This document shows, one piece after another, positions 3,542-30,064 of a stretch of DNA of 33,328 bases. The stretch is taken from NCBI GenBank assembly GCA_019636815.1, contig JAHBWT010000046.1, positions 1-33,328 of the forward strand, written 5' to 3'. The notes under the pieces are model-generated. The model was not told where the DNA came from. It searched no databases and saw only the letters and a list, made by a program, of their open reading frames with translations. Every line of letters begins with the position of its first letter. Position 1 is the stretch's first letter. Position numbers and translations under genes: made by a program. The stretch is from Nitrospira sp. (lineage in GTDB: Bacteria; Nitrospirota; Nitrospiria; Nitrospirales; Nitrospiraceae).

Positions 3542-4606
3542 TCATTTGAGCTTGATGAGGTACGCGATCAGCAACGCCGCCACCACGAGAAAAACCAAGG
3601 TGAGAACATATTGTCCCTCCCGAGCTTGGAAGAAGTCGTCCGATTGCTCAGAGGCGAGGCGCTTCGTTTGAGCCAAGAGCGGCGGCCGGTCGAAGCGCGC
3701 TTTTTCAAGGTCGTCCGGCAGCTTGAACTCAGCATTGGAAAAATCGGCCGGCCCGAGAAACTGAGCACCGGCAAACAGCGCCTTGTCCTCAAAAACCGTA
3801 AATCCAAAGAAGGTCTCACGGCTGAAGATCGCCTCGCTAAAATTGACTCGCCCCTTGAAGTGACTTCCGGAAAATCCTGTTCCTTGGCCAAATCTCGACC
3901 GTTCAAACGTTGCCGGTTGCTCGAACGTCACTTCAAGAAACTCCGCGATGCCGTCGAAAAGAGCACTCGTGCAATCCAGCGGGCCCTGAAACGTCGATCG
4001 ATGAAATCTGGTGCTGGGTCCGAACTTCGTTTCCCTGCAGGCTGCTTCCCCGATGAAGCGCCCCCGAACGAAATAGGCTTCCTTCTCAAAAATGGCGCCG
4101 GAGAGCTCGACCTTCTCCTGGAAAATCGAACGCGAGAGATCCACTTCCTCTCGGAAGCGAGATCCCTGAAAGTCCACCGACCTTTCAAACCGAAGGCCCC
4201 CTTCAGGAGACCGATGCCGTAGCACTCCCCGCACATCGGAATCTCTGATCGACAACGCTGCCCGCACAAACCGCTGCTCACCTCCATCCTCATTCAGACC
4301 CTCAGCCGCCTCGGAAGCGAGGCGATCAAAGATAAGATCTCCACGGATTATGACTCCGACAAGATCGACTCGACGCTCTTTTGCGATCGCCTCGATCACG
4401 GCTTCACCGGCCACTGCATAGGCTTCACGTTCATCTGATGAACAAGTAGGAGGAAGATGAATGACCAGTCCTACCGCTGAACCATTCGCGGGTTGCGCCA
4501 CCACACAGGTCGCGCCGGCTCCATCTGGCCCCGTGGCGATCAGACCACCAACCGCCAAAGCGATAGACCAACAGCGTCCCACTCGCATCAGGCTTAGAAA
4601 TTTCAC
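3542..4606 (-). CDS. Secreted pentapeptide-repeat protein with C-terminal membrane anchor
   Basis: The 354-residue protein starts with a signal-peptide-like segment (about residues 9-32). From about residue 75 it carries many consecutive five-residue repeats centred on Phe/Leu, such as VDFQGSRFREEVDLSRSIFQ and TTFERSRF-type units, the sign of a right-handed quadrilateral beta-helix. The last 25 residues form one hydrophobic helix (LTLVFLVVAALLIAYLIKLK). The repeats would thus be displayed outside the cytoplasmic membrane and tethered at the C-terminus. The repeats are interrupted at about 200-215. Function is unknown; known family members act as scaffolds or, in the Qnr subgroup, as gyrase mimics, but those are cytoplasmic. 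It has no obvious operon partner. Confidence 0.75.
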   Translation of the reverse strand: MKFLSLMRVGRCWSIALAVGGLIATGPDGAGATCVVAQPANGSAVGLVIHLPPTCSSDEREAYAVAGEAVIEAIAKERRVDLVGVIIRGDLIFDRLASEAAEGLNEDGGEQRFVRAALSIRDSDVRGVLRHRSPEGGLRFERSVDFQGSRFREEVDLSRSIFQEKVELSGAIFEKEAYFVRGRFIGEAACRETKFGPSTRFHRSTFQGPLDCTSALFDGIAEFLEVTFEQPATFERSRFGQGTGFSGSHFKGRVNFSEAIFSRETFFGFTVFEDKALFAGAQFLGPADFSNAEFKLPDDLEKARFDRPPLLAQTKRLASEQSDDFFQAREGQYVLTLVFLVVAALLIAYLIKLK

Positions 4607-4845: not shown

Positions 4846-5325
4846 TTAGTTGTTTCGGTAATCGTCGTCGAGCAGGTCTTCCGACTTCCCAATGAGCTCG
4901 TCTCCATCATCATCGGCGTCAAGGTCTAACTCTTCCTGAACATCGTCTTCATCGATCTCGTCTTCCATTTCCAATTCATCACCCATCATCTCATCTTCAT
5001 CGAGATCGACATCCTCAGGCTCTACCGCCAGGGCCGGCTTGGTCGCCACCGGTTTTCGCGGAGCGACCTCCTCCTCCCGAGATACCAGTTTTTCAACGGG
5101 CGCGCTCGTCCGACGAACCGAGGGAGCAGCCTTCTTCCCGGCAGATTTCCCAACTGTTTTAGCCGATTTTTTGACGGACTTTTTCTTTGCCACCGGCTTG
5201 GTCTTCTTCACGGCCACACGCTTTTTCACCGTTTTCTTGACCGCTTTCTTCTTCGCTGGCGATGCGGCTTTTTTCTTGCTTGACGCCTTCTTCTTCGTGA
5301 CGGCTTTTTTCTTCTTGTTCGCCAT
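4846..5325 (-). CDS. Lysine-rich, histone H1-like protein with acidic tail
   Basis: The 159-residue product is strikingly two-sided. Residues about 3-65 are Lys/Ala/Val-rich, with runs such as KKKKAVTKKKASSKKKA resembling eukaryotic H1 tails and bacterial AlgP/Hc1-type proteins. Residues about 95-155 are almost all Asp/Glu (DVDLDEDEMMGDELEMEDE). The basic part probably binds DNA or RNA non-specifically, and the acidic part may moderate this or contact a partner. I chose ATG 5325 because GAGGAGG lies about 7 nt upstream; the ATG two codons earlier is too close to it, and the far upstream extension lacks a ribosome-binding site. The low-complexity sequence prevents a firm family assignment. Confidence 0.75.
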   Translation of the reverse strand: MANKKKKAVTKKKASSKKKAASPAKKKAVKKTVKKRVAVKKTKPVAKKKSVKKSAKTVGKSAGKKAAPSVRRTSAPVEKLVSREEEVAPRKPVATKPALAVEPEDVDLDEDEMMGDELEMEDEIDEDDVQEELDLDADDDGDELIGKSEDLLDDDYRNN

Positions 5326-5626
5326 TCCCATTCCTCCTCTTCGTTTCAGCGCGGCGTAACGGCCTCCATCTAGCATGAACGAATAGCCTCTTGCAACCAC
5401 CCCGATTCAACTTTTTGAGCGCCCGAGCATTTTCGAATTACTTCGCATTCATTAACATCTCGGCTCTTCAGCAAACGAGGCAGTTTGTGTTGCAAAGACC
5501 GGAGAAGACATCCAGCCTCCCCGGTTCCGTGCCATGCTAAGATGGAAACACGAAGACGGTCGAAATCCTTCACCGGTTTGTTGTGTCTTATGATCATAAC
5601 GCCTTGTTTTATTGAGCGGTGACTTC
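5326..5626. other. Divergent intergenic region
   Basis: These 301 bases separate the minus-strand lysine-rich gene from the plus-strand cupredoxin gene and must carry both promoters. The minus-strand ribosome-binding site (GAGGAGG) is clear at its left edge. Near 5589-5600 there is an AT-rich TATGATCATA that could be a -10 for the copper protein, but no matching -35 is convincing. I see no gene or RNA. Confidence 0.4.
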
Positions 5627-6092: not shown

Positions 6093-7583
6093 ATGCAACC
6101 GGCTACCGCCATCCACGAACCCTCTGATCTCACGGGTGAGACCCTCAGCCTGTTGGCCTGGCACATCCCCGACCTTATTGCCTATCAACACAGTACGGAC
6201 GAATGGTGGGTGGCCCCGCTCGATGACAACCTGCCGCTCATACGGCTGAATCGCACCGGTTTGGATCTGCTCAAGGCCATGACCGGCCACAGAACCGTCG
6301 GCACACTCGTCGAACAATACGGCACGAAGATCTGCGGACCGGATGGGCAACCAGGTCAGTGGCACCTGGAACGATGGGCCACACCAAACTATTCCCTTTG
6401 TTACTATGGAACCGAACCACCGGGAGGCCATCGGCACAAAGCCAAGTGGGATATTCTTCTGCAGCAGGTCCGTGAAGGCTGGTCCGGACGGGAAGAATTT
6501 GAGGGAGAGGAACACCTGGAAACATTCCATGTTCACAATCTGGCCCAAAGTGAAGGAGATGACCGTCACTTTGACCTGATTGAAACCACGGTCTCTCACC
6601 TGTTCCGTGAGCCGAGCGAAGCCTTGGCCGGTCTGACCTACGGGCGGCTCCTCATGCGGCAGTTACGGCGGCTAGGCTGGTTCAATCCCAAACCAAGGGT
6701 TTTGCTGGAAATCGGCGGAGGCCTCGGTTATGTTGCACAGGAACTGGGGAAGGACCTCCTCCCCTTCGAAAAACAGGGAATCACCTATCTGTTACTCGAC
6801 ATCACCCAGCCGTTCCTGACGCGCCAAGTCTCTCGAGCACAAGCCGGTGGCTGGAAGGTTACCGGTGCCAGGGCGAACGCCGAATCGCTTCCGTTGGCTG
6901 ATCATTCCGTCGATCTGGTCATCGACAACGAGAACATGGCGGACATGACACCGGTCCAGCTGAATAGACAGGAGATGACGACCGGAATCGGAAATACGCC
7001 ACAACATCAAGAAGCTCTGGATTGGATTAGACGGCTCCGTCTGCCGATCGAAGCTGATCCCCCGGACTCCGTCATCTTTAACTTGGGGCCCATTCGCTTT
7101 GTCGCCGAATTGTGGCGAGTCCTCAAGCCGGGCGGCCGGGCGTTTCTCACCGAGTTCGGCATTGAGGAAGGATGGCCGGCGCCAGTGAAGTTGCCGGGGC
7201 ATACCGAATATGAAGTTCAATATAGCCATTTGCGGCAAGCGGTGCGTTGGCTCGGGTTTCAGGAACGGTACCTTTCCCTCCCGCAGTTTCTGGGGCTCAA
7301 GCCGGATACAAAGGTCCTCTGCACCGGCGCCACCTACATGATCCAGCGATTCTGTCAGGCTATGAACCGACCTTTCGCCATACGCGCCTACACGGAAAAA
7401 GAATTACAGCAGGCTTTGGGCGACATGCTCCCCAAACTGCAAGGCCTTCACTACCATGATCTCGCCGATCCGGCCTGGTTCAGCCTTCAAGATTTCAAAG
7501 TACTGTTGTTGGAAAAACCCGGCGGGACCCCGAAAGCCCAGTTCATCGAGAACAAAGGCTACCGGTGGTATTCACAGAAGTAG
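6093..7583 (+). CDS. PqqD-like domain fused to SAM-dependent methyltransferase
   Basis: The 496-residue protein has two parts. Residues about 30-78 resemble the PqqD/RiPP-recognition fold (WWVAPLDDNLPLIRLNRTG followed by LDLLKAM and TVGTLVEQYG). Residues about 200-360 form a class I methyltransferase: motif I LLEIGGGLGYV (about 204-214), acidic residue in YLLLDITQ (about 236), NAESLPLADHSVDLVID, and VLKPGGRAFLTEFG. The C-terminal ~130 residues are unfamiliar and end in a basic aromatic tail (ENKGYRWYSQK). The substrate is unknown; a PqqD-like domain suggests a peptide or protein substrate. Tail copies of this gene recur at 8312-8428 and 9121-9229, so duplication or recombination has acted here. 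It may be co-transcribed with the copper protein. Confidence 0.75.
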   Translation: MQPATAIHEPSDLTGETLSLLAWHIPDLIAYQHSTDEWWVAPLDDNLPLIRLNRTGLDLLKAMTGHRTVGTLVEQYGTKICGPDGQPGQWHLERWATPNYSLCYYGTEPPGGHRHKAKWDILLQQVREGWSGREEFEGEEHLETFHVHNLAQSEGDDRHFDLIETTVSHLFREPSEALAGLTYGRLLMRQLRRLGWFNPKPRVLLEIGGGLGYVAQELGKDLLPFEKQGITYLLLDITQPFLTRQVSRAQAGGWKVTGARANAESLPLADHSVDLVIDNENMADMTPVQLNRQEMTTGIGNTPQHQEALDWIRRLRLPIEADPPDSVIFNLGPIRFVAELWRVLKPGGRAFLTEFGIEEGWPAPVKLPGHTEYEVQYSHLRQAVRWLGFQERYLSLPQFLGLKPDTKVLCTGATYMIQRFCQAMNRPFAIRAYTEKELQQALGDMLPKLQGLHYHDLADPAWFSLQDFKVLLLEKPGGTPKAQFIENKGYRWYSQK

Positions 7584-7655
7584 TGGCTTGAGAGGGTAGC
7601 CAGTTAGTTTCCCGTGCTCGCAAGAAGTTTTAACTTTTCGGATCAAAAGCCAGCC

Positions 7656-8041
7656 TTAGGATAGGGCTTTGATAGGAAGCATCTGTGTGGGGACCTCTTT
7701 CAACTGAAGCAGACGCTGATCGTTGGTCAATAGAGTTGCCTCCAGCGCCAGTGCTGTCGCGGCAACAATCGCGTCTGGAAGCTTCAGACTGTACCGCTGG
7801 AAGGTCCACCGCGTGATTTTTGATTGCCAGAGTCAGTTCCATCACAGCGATATCTGCCAAGAACGCTCGCACTCTTGGTTCTCTCTGATGGAGCCAGGCC
7901 TGGATATGCCAAGAGCTCCAACTCTGAGATCACTGAAATGATAGATGGTCCTTGCGGGAAGAGGTTCTGAAAGGCGACCACCAAGAAAATAGAGAACGAT
8001 ATTGTGTCGAGAACAAAGCGAACCACGTCAGGTCCACTCAT
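7656..8041 (-). pseudogene. Broken PIN-domain (VapC-like) toxin gene
   Basis: Reading across frames recovers a whole PIN-domain protein. The first frame gives MSGPDVVRFVLDT; a shifted frame gives NIVLYFLGGRLSEPLP; the first frame resumes with GPSIISVISELELLAYPGL; a second shift gives VRAFLADIAVMELTLAIKNHAVDL; a third frame gives RYSLKLPDAIVAATALALEA and LLTNDQRLLQL down to a TAA at 7656. The acidic PIN residues (DTN, SELE, LPDA, TNDQ) are all recognisable, but at least four frame changes make the gene dead. It would have followed the antitoxin at 8028-8232, overlapping it by 14 nt. Confidence 0.8.
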
Positions 8042-16811: not shown

Positions 16812-17213
16812 ATGAACCGATCCGCTCTGCTGGCTTCGTTACTCGGCCTGTTCGTCATCGAAGCCGGGGTACTTTTCAGTGTGAACAGCGCCTCCACGGT
16901 ACCAAGCTTGACATGGAGGATCGGCTTTTTCATCCTCCTTCCTCTTGGACTCGCCGTCTTGATCTGGCTTCAGTTCCGGTGGATCGCAATGGTGTGCGTC
17001 ATCTATGCGACGGTTGGATTGGCAATGGACCTTGCAACCATCGTTCAGCTGCCGACGGAGGAGCTGAACACCGTTCATTCCTTGATCACCAGCGGAATCA
17101 GCGGGCTCTTCAACTTCCTTGTGATCGTGTTCGGCGGACGATGGCTCTTGGGGATGGGCCAGGAGCAGACGCCTCCAAAATCCCGTTCTCCCAATCCTCC
17201 GTCCCCTTCTTGA
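16812..17213 (+). CDS. Small four-helix membrane protein
   Basis: The 133-residue protein has four predicted membrane helices: about residues 3-23 (ALLASLLGLFVIEAGVLF), 36-55, 60-80 and 95-118. A short polar Pro/Ser-rich cytoplasmic tail follows. I recognise no family motif. ATG 16812 is preferred to TTG 16791, which would add only a polar heptapeptide; neither has a strong ribosome-binding site. Its last 104 nt run antisense to the end of the O-methyltransferase gene, an unusually long convergent overlap. Confidence 0.65.
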   Translation: MNRSALLASLLGLFVIEAGVLFSVNSASTVPSLTWRIGFFILLPLGLAVLIWLQFRWIAMVCVIYATVGLAMDLATIVQLPTEELNTVHSLITSGISGLFNFLVIVFGGRWLLGMGQEQTPPKSRSPNPPSPS

Positions 17214-18165
17214 GCGGCACTGTCCTGATACCGACGAATCCAGCTCCTTGCAGCCACTTTGCCGTCTCCGAGACGGGATAGGTGTTTCCGCCTGCCGTAA
17301 ACAACAGCATCGACACCGCAAACAAACTTGCCTCCGTCGGATGCAAACCTTCGCGATCGTGCAGAAACGCATCTTGGATAATGAATCGCCCGCCCGGCGC
17401 CAATGCGGCACGGGCTCGGCGAAAGATGGTTTGATTGTCTTCGGGAGAATAAATGTGCAGCACGTTTGAATACCAGATCACATCGTAGGTTCCCGGGATC
17501 GGCTCCTTGGAAAAATCGAGCGGGAGGTACGCGAGCCGCCGCCCAGCCCTGTGAGTGCTGGCGATCTCTTTCGCCACCGCAATGGCGGCCTCTCGGTCGC
17601 AGACGATGGCGCGCATCTTTGGATTCTTCGCCAGAAACGCCATCGCATAAGTGCCGGGCCCTCCGCCAAGATCCAGGAGCGTCTTCGCACGACCCACGCG
17701 AAGTTGCGCCACAATCGCTGGAGCGATTTCTAACGTTCGGTGATGCATGGCCCAGGTGAATTGTCGACGGTAGTCCGGAGTGTCAGGAATATCGTGGTCG
17801 ATCGGCAATCCGCTCCGAACAGACTCCAATAGTCGCCCCCAATCTTGCCAGTGAGTCTGCATGAGCTCCAGATAACCGCCGCGATAGGCACGATGGTTCC
17901 GATTCAGCGCAGTCGCGCCCAGTCGACTGTTCTTATAGACAGATCCTTTTTTTTGTAGCAGCTCGACCGCCGCAAGATTACGACAGAGAATACTCAAGCC
18001 CCGTTCGCTGACCTTGAGTTCCTTCGAAAGATCGTCGGCTGTCCATGATCGGTCTCCGACAGCCGTAAAGAGATCAAGTTCCAAAGCAGCTAACAACACG
18101 CGCGGCAACCGATAGGCTGAGATGGCATCACGAAACTCATCGAATGTCGTGATACGTGGCCTCAC
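17110..18165 (-). CDS. SAM-dependent O-methyltransferase (acetylserotonin OMT-like fold)
   Basis: The 351-residue protein has the two-domain layout of small-molecule O-methyltransferases. An N-terminal winged-helix dimerisation domain (about residues 10-95, with LAALELDLFTAVG and DDLSKELKVSERGLSILCRNL) precedes a Rossmann domain with motif I LLDLGGGPGTYAMAF, acidic VCDREAA, LPLDF and RAALAPGGRFIIQD. The usual OMT catalytic His is not obvious. GTG 18165 is chosen over GTG 18192 because its GTGA overlaps the preceding stop and GGAAGG lies 5 nt upstream. It is the last gene of a tightly coupled four-gene cassette. The substrate is unknown. Confidence 0.82.
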   Translation of the reverse strand: MRPRITTFDEFRDAISAYRLPRVLLAALELDLFTAVGDRSWTADDLSKELKVSERGLSILCRNLAAVELLQKKGSVYKNSRLGATALNRNHRAYRGGYLELMQTHWQDWGRLLESVRSGLPIDHDIPDTPDYRRQFTWAMHHRTLEIAPAIVAQLRVGRAKTLLDLGGGPGTYAMAFLAKNPKMRAIVCDREAAIAVAKEIASTHRAGRRLAYLPLDFSKEPIPGTYDVIWYSNVLHIYSPEDNQTIFRRARAALAPGGRFIIQDAFLHDREGLHPTEASLFAVSMLLFTAGGNTYPVSETAKWLQGAGFVGIRTVPLKKGTEDWENGILEASAPGPSPRAIVRRTRSQGS

Positions 18166-18599
18166 GAGGCCCTTCCGATTTCCCGGCAGCACCAGCGAAG
18201 GAGGTCCTCAAGTTTTTGGTGATTTTGAAGATCGACTATCCTGGAAAATGTGACCGCCACGAATTCGTCGGTCGTCTCGGTCTCCTCGACAAACCCGGAC
18301 TGGAGCAGAAGTGGCCGATACTTGTTGACTGCCGGCTGGAGGAAATACTTGGCCTGCTTGGCGACTTCATCGGTTCCCAAATCCTCGGGCGTCCCATCCG
18401 ACATCAGCGCCATGACATCTTCCATGGCGACACCATACTGGCACACGACCTTGCCCTCTGGTCTGACCTCTAAGAGCCAGCCATCCTTCCCTAAATCCAT
18501 GACCAACGGTCCGTTTGGTTCCAATTCGTAGAATCGGGGGAACACTCGTACGAGTTCGGTACGAAGTCGTGTCCATGCCGAAGGGGTCGGATCAGTCAT
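18162..18599 (-). CDS. Conserved-looking hypothetical protein in four-gene cassette
   Basis: This 145-residue protein is not recognised. It is soluble and mixed alpha/beta, with no signal peptide. Segments such as GPLVMDLGKDGWLLEVRPEGKVVCQYG look like beta strands; DEVAKQAKYFLQPAVNKYRPLLLQSGF and NHQKLEDLLRWCCREIG look helical. Two adjacent Cys lie near the C-terminus. Its ATG overlaps the TPR gene stop (ATGA) and its stop overlaps the methyltransferase GTG (GTGA), so it is translated as part of a chain. The coupling suggests it works with its neighbours. Confidence 0.7.
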   Translation of the reverse strand: MTDPTPSAWTRLRTELVRVFPRFYELEPNGPLVMDLGKDGWLLEVRPEGKVVCQYGVAMEDVMALMSDGTPEDLGTDEVAKQAKYFLQPAVNKYRPLLLQSGFVEETETTDEFVAVTFSRIVDLQNHQKLEDLLRWCCREIGRAS

Positions 18600-19420
18600 G
18601 CATACATCCCTCGACGAGATCGGAGCGTATCTTGCTCGGCGAGACAGGCACGAAGCGTCTCCAGACGCCGCAAGTTTTCTTCAAGCTTCGGCAGGCGATA
18701 TTTGCGATCCATGTTCACAACCTGTTCGAGCAGATCTACCGCGTCCTGCAGACGCCCCATTTCCTCGTGACATTGAGCCAGCACGTACCGGGCGCCGCCT
18801 GTGCGGAGCTCATCACCTAATCGCTCGGCGATGGATTGGCTGGTTTGGCAACAGGCGACGGCCTCATCGTAGCGCTTTTGCATCAAGAACGTGCGGCCGA
18901 TCATGCGCCATGCGTCCGCAACACCTCCGAGATTGCCTAACCGGCGCATCAGCGCCAACGACCGTTCATAAAACTGGATGGCCTCGTCAAACTGTCCGGT
19001 TTCCCGAGCCACTAATCCAAAGTCAGAAAACAACACGGCTTGGGCAGCCTCATCATGGGTCTTCATCATGAGGTCGAGGGCTTCCAGATAATAGGCTCTT
19101 GCCAGAGTCCATTCGCCGGCGTCGGCCCGGAGATTCCCCAAATTTGCCAATGTTGTTCCAATTCCCTTCTCGTCCCCAAGAATCTTCTGTAGCTCCAGGA
19201 CCTCCTGGTAATGCACCTGAGCGGAATCTCGACGCCCGCTGACTGCACAGATGTTTCCAAGATTCCCGAGCGTGGCAACCAGCGCTCGTCGATCGCCGGT
19301 GAGCCGGTCGCACTCCAATGCCTTGGTGTAACAGACATACGCCTCCGTGTAGTGTCCGCGCGAAAAATGTTCGTTCCCTTGGCGGTTGAATTCCCCGGAA
19401 AGTCCGTTTCGCGGCGTCAT
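18596..19420 (-). CDS. TPR-repeat protein
   Basis: The 274-residue protein is built almost wholly of tetratricopeptide repeats of about 40 residues, the longer spacing seen in eukaryote-like LGN/Rapsyn-type TPRs: NRQGNEHFSRGHYTEAYVCYTKAL, LGNLGNICAVSGRRDSAQVHY, LANLGNLRADAGEWTLARAYY, FGLVARETGQFDEAIQFYERSL, WRMIGRTFLMQKRYDEAVACC and RYVLAQCHEEMGRLQDAVDLL. About six repeats are visible, followed by a charged capping helix. It lacks a signal peptide, so it is probably a cytoplasmic scaffold. It is coupled by ATGA overlaps to both neighbours. Confidence 0.85.
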   Translation of the reverse strand: MTPRNGLSGEFNRQGNEHFSRGHYTEAYVCYTKALECDRLTGDRRALVATLGNLGNICAVSGRRDSAQVHYQEVLELQKILGDEKGIGTTLANLGNLRADAGEWTLARAYYLEALDLMMKTHDEAAQAVLFSDFGLVARETGQFDEAIQFYERSLALMRRLGNLGGVADAWRMIGRTFLMQKRYDEAVACCQTSQSIAERLGDELRTGGARYVLAQCHEEMGRLQDAVDLLEQVVNMDRKYRLPKLEENLRRLETLRACLAEQDTLRSRRGMYA

Positions 19421-20019
19421 GACGTGCCTACCAACAGATGTGCGACTTGCTGCTTCGCGCCGGTCAGGATGGAAACGCCATCTCCCACCAAAAGACTGTC
19501 GAAGTTGTACTTCAGGAGGCGGCAGAGGCCTTCCTTCGCTTTTTCGACGTCGGCATACTTTTCAGAAGGAAGCAATCGTACGGCGCCTGGAGGCTGGCCG
19601 ATGAGTGCATCCCCCACAATCAGAATCCCTCGCCCCCTATCAATGAAGAAAGCAGACTCACCTGGAGACTTCTGATCTTTCAGATGAACGGCCCAAATCC
19701 CACCGGGCAAGAGCTCGCCATCTTTGTATGTCTTGGTCGCTTTCGTCTCCATGAGGGCAGCATCAGCTTCCGGCAGGTACAATTGGCAACCGAACTCACG
19801 TTGATACGCTGACGCTTCACGGAGATGATCTCGGTTCGTGATGAGAATGTAATCGATCGGCGCATGACGCCGAACAGTCGCGCTCGCCTCGCCGGACATC
19901 GGAGGCGGATCGATCAGGATCTGATGCTCACCGACCGTCAGCAACAGGCCGTTGAAATCAAGCTGTTTCTCATCTGAAAACCACGACCACTGCCAGATGC
20001 CGGGGAAAATTTGCTTCAT
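19417..20019 (-). CDS. MBL-fold protein with altered metal-binding motif
   Basis: The 200-residue protein follows the metallo-beta-lactamase fold: NGLLLTVGEHQILIDPPP, then DYILITNRDHLREA, then AVHLKDQKSPGESAFFIDRGRGILIVGDALIG. The canonical HxHxDH zinc motif is replaced by TNRDH, keeping only the Asp-His pair, and the later His positions are weak. It may bind one metal or none. This could be a recognised MBL subgroup and not a decayed gene, since the frame is intact and the rest is well formed. It is the first gene of the cassette and overlaps the TPR gene by 4 nt. Confidence 0.75.
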   Translation of the reverse strand: MKQIFPGIWQWSWFSDEKQLDFNGLLLTVGEHQILIDPPPMSGEASATVRRHAPIDYILITNRDHLREASAYQREFGCQLYLPEADAALMETKATKTYKDGELLPGGIWAVHLKDQKSPGESAFFIDRGRGILIVGDALIGQPPGAVRLLPSEKYADVEKAKEGLCRLLKYNFDSLLVGDGVSILTGAKQQVAHLLVGTS

Positions 20020-20065: not shown

Positions 20066-20305
20066 TCACAGAGCTGCGATGGCATCCTTGACCGTCTTGG
20101 CAACCTTCGTTCGGATGCTCACTTCGTTGGGCAAATCGATCATATCGTCTTCCGGCACCGTAATGAATTTACGGTTCGACCCCTTCGTCAATGAGATCAA
20201 GAACATGCTATTGGAGGGAGTGACCGGGATCACGACTTGTACGGATCCGTCAATCTCCCGCACCACTTCTAGAAACTTTTGTTTCCCCTCCTCCATCTCA
20301 TCCAT
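20066..20305 (-). CDS. Small hypothetical protein
   Basis: I do not recognise this 79-residue protein. It starts with an acidic helix (MDEMEEGKQKFLEVVREID), then strand-like segments (VQVVIPVTPSNSMFLISLTKG, KFITVPEDDMIDLP) and a C-terminal Lys-rich helix. It has no signal peptide or cysteine. AGAGGG about 5 nt before ATG 20305 supports translation. It lies 46 nt upstream of the MBL gene and may be transcribed with the cassette. Confidence 0.6.
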   Translation of the reverse strand: MDEMEEGKQKFLEVVREIDGSVQVVIPVTPSNSMFLISLTKGSNRKFITVPEDDMIDLPNEVSIRTKVAKTVKDAIAAL

Positions 20306-20428: not shown

Positions 20429-20962
20429 CTACATATTACTTGCTCCACCCGCCAACAACTTCTCAACTTCCGCGACAATGATGTCGGCTCCTGCCAAGTC
20501 CATATCGCCGACCCGCTGCCATCGAATGACTCCATTCTGGTCGATCACATAGACATTCGGAATAAACCTTCCCCCACCGTACAATTTATCGGTCGTTTTG
20601 GCAGGGTCCAGAAGGTAGGGATAGGTGACCTTGGCCGGGAAACCGGACAAGAACTCGCCGACCTCTCGCTTCGAATCGCCTGATGAATTGACACCTAGCA
20701 CGGCCACGTCCTTCCCTTGAGTCGACTCATAGACCTTCTGCAATGCACTCCCCTGCATCATGCAGGGGTCACAGATGTGAAAGAGCCCCAGCACTACGAC
20801 CTTTCCTCTGTAGGACTCGAGCGATACAGTCTCACCAGTGATCGCCGTAAGGGTAAAGGACGGAGCTTTTTCTCCCACTTGAAACAACCCCGCCGCAAGA
20901 ACCAGTGAGACACACCATACTGGAAAGGTCGGCAGCCCCATCGCCAATAACAACCGTTTCAT
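20429..20962 (-). CDS. TlpA/AhpC-TSA family thiol-disulfide protein, exported
   Basis: The 177-residue protein has an N-terminal signal or anchor helix (about residues 4-25). A thioredoxin-fold AhpC/TSA-Redoxin domain follows: VGEKAPSFTLTAITGETVSLESYRGKVVVLGLFHICDPCMMQ, with the redox pair Cys64-Asp-Pro-Cys67, then GVNSSGD, YPYLLDPA, and RFIPNVYVIDQNGVIRW containing the cis-Pro region. It probably reduces periplasmic disulfides, for instance in cytochrome maturation. ATG 20962 is preferred to GTG 20965 because GGGAGG lies 5 nt upstream. Co-transcription with the genes below it is possible, but the gap is 123 nt. Confidence 0.85.
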   Translation of the reverse strand: MKRLLLAMGLPTFPVWCVSLVLAAGLFQVGEKAPSFTLTAITGETVSLESYRGKVVVLGLFHICDPCMMQGSALQKVYESTQGKDVAVLGVNSSGDSKREVGEFLSGFPAKVTYPYLLDPAKTTDKLYGGGRFIPNVYVIDQNGVIRWQRVGDMDLAGADIIVAEVEKLLAGGASNM

Positions 20963-21121
20963 CACAACCTCCCTTTCGAGAAGAGCTCAGTGCCTCATGA
21001 TCGATAGACCATACACCTCGCCTCCCCGCAAGACCTTTGCGGTTGCCCAGGCCATCAGCTCGTACAGACTGCATCCTACCACGGCAATTTTTTGAGCGGC
21101 AACCACACGGCAGCGTCGGAA

Positions 21122-27935: not shown

Positions 27936-28730
27936 TCACTGCGCCAATACTTCGATCATCTCGTCCAATGACTGCATCGTCCCGAGCAGCGTCGGGCTTC
28001 CGAATTGACGCGTATAGCCGAACTCCTTCACTTTCTGGAGCGACAGCACCAGGCTGTGGAAGTCTTCCAATGTGGATGTTTCAAAGTATGTGATGAAGTC
28101 CACATCGTCAAGGCCACTCGAGTGATAGAGTTTTCGCTTGACGGTTTTGAGAAATGGCAGTGTCACTGCAGTATGTTCCCGCATCATGGCCGTCCGTTTC
28201 TCCTGATCCAGCTCCCACCATTCAGCCGATTTTCTGATCGGGATGACGATGGCATAGAGCTTCTCACCTGCCTCGCTCGGAGCCTTCAACTCCGTCTTCA
28301 TCTGATCCGAGAATCCGGGAACATAATTCGGTTTCTTTGTAAGCCCGTGCATCACTCTGACGCCTATAAGGTGTGTCCCGAATCGGCTGCTCTGAAGATC
28401 GAGAAGAAACCTCTGCGTATCGCGTAACTCCGACGCATGAATCCCGAACAACACATCGGCTCGGTCGGAAAGTCCTCGTAGCAGGTACAAATCAATCGCC
28501 ACGTTCTCTCGATGCTGCTCCACCACCCCCTTCAGTGTCGCCAGTCGAGCGATACGGGCCGATGGTTCCAACCTGCCCCATTCATCGTCGAGCGCAAAGG
28601 CGGCAAAGGTCCCGTAGATGCCAGGCTCTGCAAGAAGCCGCTCACGATCGACCTCTGCGTGGGCTGAGGATATCCAGGCTCCAACCAGCCCCCAGAGAAG
28701 CAACGGAATGATGGAATGAAATCGAGTCAT
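27936..28730 (-). CDS. cld: Chlorite dismutase, periplasmic, Nitrospira type
   Basis: Cld is a haem b enzyme that turns chlorite into chloride and O2. The 264-residue precursor has a signal peptide (LLLWGLVGAWISSAHA, cleavage after residue 25). The mature part follows the long (clade 1) Cld pattern: GIYGTFAAFALDDEW, LYLLRGLSDRADVLFGIHA, AIVIPIRKSAEWWELDQEKRTAMMREHT, and KRKLYHSSGLDDVDFITYFET. His186 (REHT) and Arg199 (VKRK), 13 residues apart, correspond to the proximal haem His and distal catalytic Arg of characterised enzymes. The ATG at 28730 overlaps the purB stop (ATGA), which fixes the start. It is embedded between purB and purC. Confidence 0.92.
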   Translation of the reverse strand: MTRFHSIIPLLLWGLVGAWISSAHAEVDRERLLAEPGIYGTFAAFALDDEWGRLEPSARIARLATLKGVVEQHRENVAIDLYLLRGLSDRADVLFGIHASELRDTQRFLLDLQSSRFGTHLIGVRVMHGLTKKPNYVPGFSDQMKTELKAPSEAGEKLYAIVIPIRKSAEWWELDQEKRTAMMREHTAVTLPFLKTVKRKLYHSSGLDDVDFITYFETSTLEDFHSLVLSLQKVKEFGYTRQFGSPTLLGTMQSLDEMIEVLAQ

Positions 28731-30064
28731 TGTCGTCTTTTCCTCTTCGCACCGGCCACTGGTCGTCTCTTTCGTCCGAACACCCGCCGGTAGATCTGCT
28801 CGAGGTGACGGAGGTAATACGTTGGATTGAAACAGGTTGAGATTTCTTCCTTGCTCAGATGGTGCGAAATGAAGGGATCTTTGTTCACGAGGTCCTGCAG
28901 CAAGCCTCCTCCTCTCCAAGAAACCATCGCGTTACGCTGAACCGCTTCATAGGATTCTTTTCGCTGCGCCCCCTTCTCGACCAACGCCAACAGCAGCCGC
29001 TGGGAATAGACGAGTCCTCCGGTCAATTCTAGATTTCGCCTCATCCGATCAGGATAGACGACCAGGTGCTCGACGAGATCCGTAACTTTGGCCAGCATGT
29101 AATCGACCAGAATCGTGCTGTCCGGCATGATCACCCGCTCAACGGACGAATGGCTGATATCGCGCTCATGCCAGAGCGCGACGTTTTCCATCGCCGCCAA
29201 ACTGTTGGCGCGAACCACCCGCGCCAAGCCGCAGAGATTTTCCGACACAATCGGATTTCGTTTATGCGGCATCGCCGACGATCCCTTTTGGCCTTCGGAG
29301 AAATACTCTTCCGCTTCGAGCACTTCCGTACGCTGGAGATGGCGAATCTCCATCGCAAATTTCTCGATGCTTGCCGCAAGCAATGCGAGCGCCGTCGCAT
29401 AGGACGCATGGCGATCCCGTTGGACGACCTGGTTTGAGACCGGATCCGCCTTCAGACCGAGTTTCTCACAGACGTATTCTTCGATCTCAGGCCCTTGATG
29501 CGCGAAGGTTCCCATCGCGCCGGAGAGTTTTCCAACGGCGATATCACTCCGGACCTTCCGCAATCGTTCCTGGTGACGGCGCACTTCCTCGTACCACAGC
29601 GCCAGTTTCAGACCGAACGAGATCGGTTCACCGTGAATGCCGTGCGACCGCCCCACCATCACCTGGTTCTTGTAGCGGAATGCCTGCCGCCTTAATACGA
29701 CAAGCAATCCATCAACACCTTCCAAGATCAGGTCCATCGCTTCGGTCATCTGTACGGCGAGGGAGGTGTCGACGATGTCCGAGGACGTAAGGCCCATGTG
29801 AAGGTACCGGTGCTCGGATCCGACCGAGTCCATGAGCGATTCCAGAAAGGCAATGACGTCGTGCTTCGTCACCTTTTCGATCTCAGCGATACGCTCGACA
29901 TCGATCTTGGCCTTCTTCCTGATTATCGCGGACGTGCCACGCGGAACCTGTTTGGCCCGCTCAAAGGCCGCGCACGCGCGCAGCTCAACCTCCAGCCAGA
30001 TTTCATACTTGTGTTTCAGGTCCCAGATGGCCTTCATGGCGGGACGCGTATAGCGCTCAATCAC
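28727..30064 (-). CDS. purB: Adenylosuccinate lyase
   Basis: PurB cleaves both SAICAR and adenylosuccinate, releasing fumarate. The 445-residue protein is of the fumarase/aspartase superfamily: [27 protein letters not shown] at the start, [35 protein letters not shown], and the signature loop [12 protein letters not shown]. The C-terminal [20 protein letters not shown] is an unusually basic tail. It overlaps the nusB end by 8 nt and the cld start by 4 nt, so translation of all three is probably linked. Confidence 0.96.

Follow-up and report, generated by a model that had tools for sequence, protein, structure and literature searches.

The window analysed here, a contig of 33,328 nucleotides from a Nitrospira sp. 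genome (JAHBWT010000046.1 in assembly GCA_019636815.1), carries on its minus strand a cluster of five genes that encode, in this order, a protein of 79 residues (s79), a metallo-beta-lactamase-fold protein (MBL), a tetratricopeptide-repeat protein (TPR), a small protein that fits no recognised family (UNK) and an O-methyltransferase (OMT). We find that these genes are conserved together among the Nitrospirota and that the cluster seems to consist of two pairs linked to each other, TPR-UNK and s79-MBL, with OMT loosely attached. As a tentative reading, to which we give somewhat less than an even chance, we propose that the five genes form an operon specific to a lineage of the phylum, namely the order to which Nitrospira belongs and some of its sister orders, and that it encodes a cytosolic protein-handling complex, with TPR and UNK as the client-binding pair, s79 and MBL as a second pair and OMT as an accessory.

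Members of Nitrospira drive nitrite oxidation and complete nitrification, are genetically hard to manipulate, and have a core gene set of which much is unassigned. A single-copy, strongly constrained cluster that occurs in nearly every Nitrospirales genome searched, and that includes two families without a database name, is a good target for study; its proteins are small and seem to be soluble, and with the pairs TPR-UNK and s79-MBL binding can be tested directly. The first-pass annotation of the window, made from the sequence alone, knew no named system with this gene set, and we found none in the open-licence literature either, where searches on the gene set, on a conserved Nitrospira cluster and on Nitrospira together with YbjN yielded no paper about this cluster among the matches listed. 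The main text of one study of Nitrospirales genomes (PMC12342949) contains none of the six terms sought.

Conservation and junctions of the cluster

In a survey of 295 Nitrospirota genomes, UNK was found in 101, MBL in 110 and s79 in 107. For counts of neighbours one MBL place was taken per genome and four weak matches to MBL from beyond the class (G010, G028, G044 and G071) were omitted, leaving 106; on this basis at least one of UNK, MBL and s79 is present in 112 genomes and all three in 99. UNK adjoins MBL in 93 of the 100 genomes having both, and s79 adjoins MBL in 97 of 101. The seven UNK-MBL exceptions are a genome whose MBL is split by inserted DNA (G260), two members of the order in which UNK and MBL fall on different contigs (G282 and G227) and four genomes from beyond it (G163, G230, G119 and G157). 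Across families f1 and f2 the order s79-MBL-TPR-UNK(-OMT) is kept. A search for homologues scattered in close relatives, which the first-pass annotation had named as what would refute it, came out negative: neighbours stay together, and the cluster is conserved and co-inherited. The four-gene unit described there thus stands in that its genes are conserved together, and was incomplete in that it missed a fifth conserved gene, s79.

All five genes are under purifying selection. In six same-genus comparisons the ratio of nonsynonymous to synonymous substitution rates (dN/dS, method NG86, with several dS values near saturation) is 0.04-0.15 for s79, 0.09-0.12 for MBL, 0.06-0.12 for TPR, 0.09-0.16 for UNK and 0.10-0.15 for OMT; purF has 0.02-0.04 and the neighbouring gene TM140 0.28-0.42. 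One same-genus genome, G284, lacks s79, MBL, UNK and an OMT orthologue, and its best TPR match is paralogue-like; a missing stretch of the assembly (90% completeness) is a likelier cause than gene loss. At the split MBL of G260 (locus L140, about 6510-7815) an insert of about 1.3 kb with short open reading frames (ORFs) interrupts the gene, and s79, TPR, UNK and OMT are still open.

The chain of ATGA, ATGA and GTGA stop/start overlaps that had been noted for MBL, TPR, UNK and OMT was confirmed, in position and order, in the window sequence. Naive ORF calls over 266,923 bases of this genome give 151 neighbouring codirectional pairs, of which 29 allow a 4-nt overlap; three in succession occur in this sample only in the window. 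By chance, three overlaps are expected in 0.19 cubed, or about 0.7%, of four-gene stretches. A genome should therefore contain a few runs of this kind, and the overlaps alone are weak evidence; it is conservation, rather than the overlaps by themselves, that carries the argument for the cluster. Scans for promoters and terminators found 4 and 4, with 4.0 and 6.4 expected, which is not above chance.

We compared the junctions at 81 loci (the window, L061-L138, L139 and L140) in four groups: same-genus loci, other loci of f1, loci of f2, and loci of f3 and outgroups. An overlap of some length between TPR and UNK is found at 25 of 26, 20 of 21 and 14 of 16 loci of the first three groups and at all three loci of the last where the genes are adjacent, 62 of 66 in total. 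MBL overlaps TPR at 23 of 26 same-genus loci (by exactly 4 nt at 22), 7 of 21 other f1 loci, 0 of 14 f2 loci and 1 of 2 in the last group, and UNK overlaps OMT at 25 of 26 (by exactly 4 nt at 23 of 26), 10 of 20 and 0 of 16 in the first three groups, with OMT adjoining UNK at 0 of 16 f3 and outgroup loci. The overlap of s79 with MBL is distributed otherwise: 0 of 26 same-genus loci, 1 of 21 other f1 loci, all 16 f2 loci (4 nt each) and 0 of 2 in f3 and outgroups. A second comparison, with named loci of the Nitrospira group, covers the best 80 of 151 relatives, which are the closest ones, and a match beyond the Nitrospirota may lie among the others; a 4-nt overlap joins MBL to TPR at 51 of 78 measurable loci, TPR to UNK at 74 of 80 and UNK to OMT at 74 of 78, with start sites mis-set at L149, L199 and L208. 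The closest named loci belong to metagenome-assembled genomes of Nitrospira sp. (UNK is 90% identical in L141), and one locus, L196, lies on the Nitrospira moscoviensis chromosome.

Full-length ORFs were counted at 67 loci of f1 to f3, ignoring TPR matches below 50% and OMT matches below 40% identity: s79 is full-length at 64, MBL at 63, TPR at 64, UNK at 62 (two more fall barely under the length limit) and OMT at 58. Most misses other than those of OMT are contig ends or clusters on two contigs (L094, L095, L111, L112 and L113). OMT is in pieces or absent at L092 (G009), L096 (G094), L097 (G055), L099 (G208) and L100 (G141), where s79, MBL, TPR and UNK are intact, and it is also shortened at L076. 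Relocation of OMT within the genomes that lost it was considered and rejected, as these hold, besides remnants at the locus, only paralogues of at most about 225 bits. The proposal that unbroken coupling keeps four proteins in fixed ratio is not supported, in view of these five genomes, in which the rest of the cluster persists, and of the lack of both the MBL-TPR and the UNK-OMT overlap in the sister family f2.

Partial sets complete the picture. TPR and UNK stand together without MBL in outgroup families f8 (L125, L127) and f4 (L130), s79 and MBL without TPR-UNK in f4 (L131), and MBL and TPR without UNK in f9 (L134); G242 lacks TPR and UNK and keeps s79-MBL-OMT, and G262 (f8) keeps s79 and UNK with MBL and TPR absent. 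It is from these sets and from the junction pattern that the division into two pairs follows.

Properties of the five proteins

UNK has no Pfam or NCBIfam match, and none of 31 relatives has a credible one. Its invariant residues are C53, G56, E72, D73, D77, E78, G102 and E105. An AlphaFold2 model built from 80 sequences (predicted local distance difference test, pLDDT, 87.7; predicted template-modelling score, pTM, 0.81) has the topology alpha-beta3-alpha-beta2-alpha, and in VIA-align the nine best-ranked rows all belong either to YbjN proteins or to chaperones of type III secretion (Z 7.0-7.5, root-mean-square deviation 3.4-4.2, 98-115 residues), led by SycT (Z 7.5), YbjN (7.4), the YopN/SycN-YscB complex (7.4) and AmyR (7.3). 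In Foldseek, type III chaperones are frequent among the matches, and unrelated proteins are present too. The same topology is described for DR1245, YbjN and the chaperones of type III secretion systems in PMC3575483, and PMC5398634 has YbjN proteins acting through protein-protein contacts. UNK represents a new protein family and is predicted, from its model, to share the topology of YbjN and class I type III chaperones. It resembles the YbjN family (Escherichia coli YbjN, Erwinia amylovora AmyR, Deinococcus radiodurans DR1245) and the class I chaperones in predicted topology and in size, and is likewise small, acidic and without a long hydrophobic segment; unlike them, it sits in a putative operon with TPR, MBL and s79. 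A link to an injectisome was set aside because the genome of the window, G000, with 4 secretin-domain matches, has none above the cut-off of the type III secretin model TIGR02516 (other parts of the secretion system were not sought). Two further candidates were rejected: a relationship of UNK to s79 by duplication (comparison of their profiles gave a probability of 0.2%), and the match of the UNK profile to PDB 7rdr, a 'circular tendon repeat' (E 1.6e-12), of which 0 stretches pass alone and which we take to be a repeat artefact.

TPR orthologues are marked by an invariant C-terminal signature, VV..D..Y.LPK..EN..RL; G000 has one orthologue (461.9 bits) and one distant paralogue (188.6 bits). 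None of the five proteins has a long hydrophobic segment. The second protein without a Pfam or NCBIfam match, s79, is modelled with confidence (pLDDT 90.1) with a predicted alpha-beta-beta-beta-alpha fold whose matches, none of them clear, are scattered among signal recognition particle Alu proteins, HPF/YfiA and porphobilinogen deaminase, at a best Z of 5.5. The alignment of s79 took in 65 of the 76 distinct rows listed.

Classical zinc metallo-beta-lactamases carry an HxHxDH motif and further histidine ligands. MBL does not fit this definition, having TNRDH at 61-65 and, where the later ligands would stand, K117 and D180 (as placed by motif order, not structure). It belongs instead to Pfam PF14597, Lactamase_B_5 (85.8 bits against a cut-off of 28.4, residues 6-195 of 200), a name absent from open-licence papers among the matches listed, and it aligns over 190 residues (E 2.7e-19) with PDB 2p97, a member of PF14597 titled only 'Hypothetical protein', with which it shares the TNxDH, K.PGE, GD and VGDG motifs. 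The canonical zinc motif had been thought lost from MBL; the TNxDH form is rather the normal state of the family, common to all 29 aligned relatives and to 2p97. Residues invariant in the 29 relatives include W11, F22, D37, P38, T61, N62, D64, H65, R67, K117, G120, E121, G136, D137, G179, D180 and G181, and the invariance of the site argues that it is a working one. We think that the reduced site (D64, H65, D137 and D180 with K117) still binds a metal or a small ligand.

OMT is a member of both PF00891, Methyltransf_2 (70.1 bits, cut-off 22.3), and the dimerisation domain family PF08100 (41.2 bits, cut-off 25.6), and falls under every NCBIfam equivalog cut-off. Its S-adenosylmethionine (SAM)-binding stretch is intact, and the LH position, whose H237 we take to be the catalytic histidine, is invariant in an alignment of 13 of 14 rows (L119, with an internal stop, was omitted). 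In domain architecture and SAM motif it is like O-methyltransferases of the same class (RedM, BchU/CrtF-like), and its nearest solved relatives include methyltransferases of secondary metabolism such as RedM. We regard it as an accessory methyltransferase for small molecules, linked to the cluster in two families.

Possible functions

A protein-handling complex is favoured by the conserved linkage, by the two pairs, by the YbjN- and chaperone-like fold predicted for UNK, by the lack of long hydrophobic segments and by the purifying selection on all five genes. In such a complex UNK would bind a client by protein-protein contact rather than by catalysis, and TPR would be a scaffold that holds or presents UNK, the two forming the client-binding core. 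The second unit, s79 and MBL, with s79 as the partner of MBL, would add a metal- or ligand-dependent step in which MBL either works on the client or serves as a cofactor sensor, and OMT would be optional. A weak lead as to the client is a cofactor-bearing or pterin-linked enzyme.

Several points weigh against this proposal. No Foldseek match of the UNK model reaches E <= 0.001, and a VIA Z below 8 may reflect a merely common arrangement. No sequence relation of UNK to YbjN or to type III chaperones appears in a Pfam search of 31 aligned UNK proteins, 0 of which match a family of either kind at E <= 1, or in a profile search of PDB sequences. The parts of the cluster are separable, as f8 and f4 have MBL away from TPR-UNK and G262 has s79 and UNK without MBL and TPR, and co-transcription alone could maintain the gene order. 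What the analysis shows is the conserved linkage, the pairing, the constraint with its invariant residues and the fold predicted for UNK; the physical complex and its binding, the chaperone-like role, the activity or catalysis of MBL, and the client are what we infer. A bolder form of the proposal, and an improbable one, is that the scaffold TPR, UNK with its YbjN- and chaperone-like fold but no sequence kinship to those families, the reduced-site MBL and s79 constitute a new class of bacterial client-escort complex, so far seen only in Nitrospirota, that would mature an essential enzyme of nitrifier core metabolism, perhaps one with a pterin or metal cofactor.

Among the alternatives, a small-molecule pathway, in which OMT would add a methyl group to a phenolic or enol product and MBL would hydrolyse or bind an intermediate, with TPR and UNK organising the enzymes, is unlikely. 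It would suit OMT, a full Methyltransf_2 enzyme with the SAM motif and the invariant LH position, close to solved methyltransferases of secondary metabolism; but the cluster has no further biosynthetic gene, OMT stands beside UNK at none of the f3 and outgroup loci, and the other four genes stay intact where OMT has decayed. We also doubt that the genes are incidental passengers of a stable purine neighbourhood, their overlaps being compaction only. The flanks purL-purF-tlpA-...-recG are themselves conserved in much of f1, and 4-nt overlaps are, as counted above, common in the genome; against this, the core pairs are also kept at places apart from the purine genes in f8, f4 and f9, the TPR-UNK overlap is kept where flanks differ, and the neighbours TM140, DCC and p290 mostly evolve faster than the cluster.

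Quite unlikely, in our estimate, is a pterin module whose core proteins help to make, carry or insert a pterin-containing cofactor, a reading drawn from neighbourhoods outside the Nitrospirales. A gene for pterin-4a-carbinolamine dehydratase lies beside UNK in f8 (L125, L127, L129), at a distance of 1.4 kb from MBL-TPR in f9 (L134) and immediately upstream of MBL in f6 (L136, L137, L138), GTP cyclohydrolase I is beside MBL in f7 (L133) and FmdE beside s79 in f5 (L241, L242). Of 24 genomes searched for the dehydratase, 23 have one copy or two. Yet the seven dehydratase loci represent only three families and perhaps one ancestral neighbourhood, these neighbourhoods were noticed post hoc, without a control count, and the cluster in the window contains no pterin gene. 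In Nitrospirales the dehydratase is elsewhere in the genome (for example G000:C100) and, judged by eye, belongs with the f6 type and differs from the f8 and f9 type; its surroundings there were examined and led nowhere. An anti-phage defence system was rejected, since PADLOC gave generic matches only, of OMT to mad2 (132 residues) and of TPR to a TPR model, and none for MBL, UNK or s79.

Locus layout and surroundings

The features of the locus are listed in Table 1. The mechanical ORF list places the OMT start 27 nt further upstream (GTG 18192, 360 residues); we set it at GTG 18165 because relatives start there and GGAAGGG lies upstream.

Table 1. Genes of the cluster, their overlaps and the upstream neighbour, in window coordinates.
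Feature	Position	Strand	Description
tlpA-like thioredoxin-fold gene	20429-20965	minus	upstream neighbour, frequent but not constant
s79	20066-20305	minus	79 aa; conserved, 46 nt upstream of MBL
MBL	19417-20019	minus	200 aa; metallo-beta-lactamase-fold protein, Pfam Lactamase_B_5 (PF14597)
ATGA stop/start overlap, MBL to TPR	19417-19420	minus	
TPR	18596-19420	minus	274 aa; tetratricopeptide-repeat protein
ATGA stop/start overlap, TPR to UNK	18596-18599	minus	most conserved junction
UNK	18162-18599	minus	145 aa; without recognised family
GTGA stop/start overlap, UNK to OMT	18162-18165	minus	
OMT	17110-18165	minus	351 aa; Methyltransf_2 class SAM-dependent O-methyltransferase with dimerisation domain

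The neighbourhood is one of housekeeping genes: purL, purF and recG (named from their translations), a PilZ gene, a TlpA-like gene and a DCC1-like gene. The flanking order is conserved in much of f1, and many same-genus relatives have no tlpA-like gene at the locus. A GBBH-like_N (DUF971) gene is close to cluster genes in f8, f9 and f4. At the outgroup locus L134 a fusion of an S30AE (ribosome-hibernation) domain with a cold-shock domain (6111-6710, plus strand) adjoins MBL-TPR, and at L131 of f4 a rhodanese gene (6590-6949, minus strand) comes immediately after s79-MBL.

Elsewhere in the window, a gene at 4846-5400 (minus strand) encodes a protein without a Pfam match, histone-like by eye, with a basic head rich in lysine and alanine and a long acidic tail. 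A 496-residue protein (6093-7583, plus strand) has a SAM methyltransferase domain only in its middle, with no assignment for the remainder, and a pentapeptide-repeat protein (3542-4606, minus strand) has by eye a C-terminal hydrophobic segment. Among the purine genes, at 27936-28919 (minus strand), lies a gene for a chlorite dismutase family protein (PF06778, E 1.4e-35), whose start codon is uncertain, the TTG-started ORF having a long N-terminal extension.

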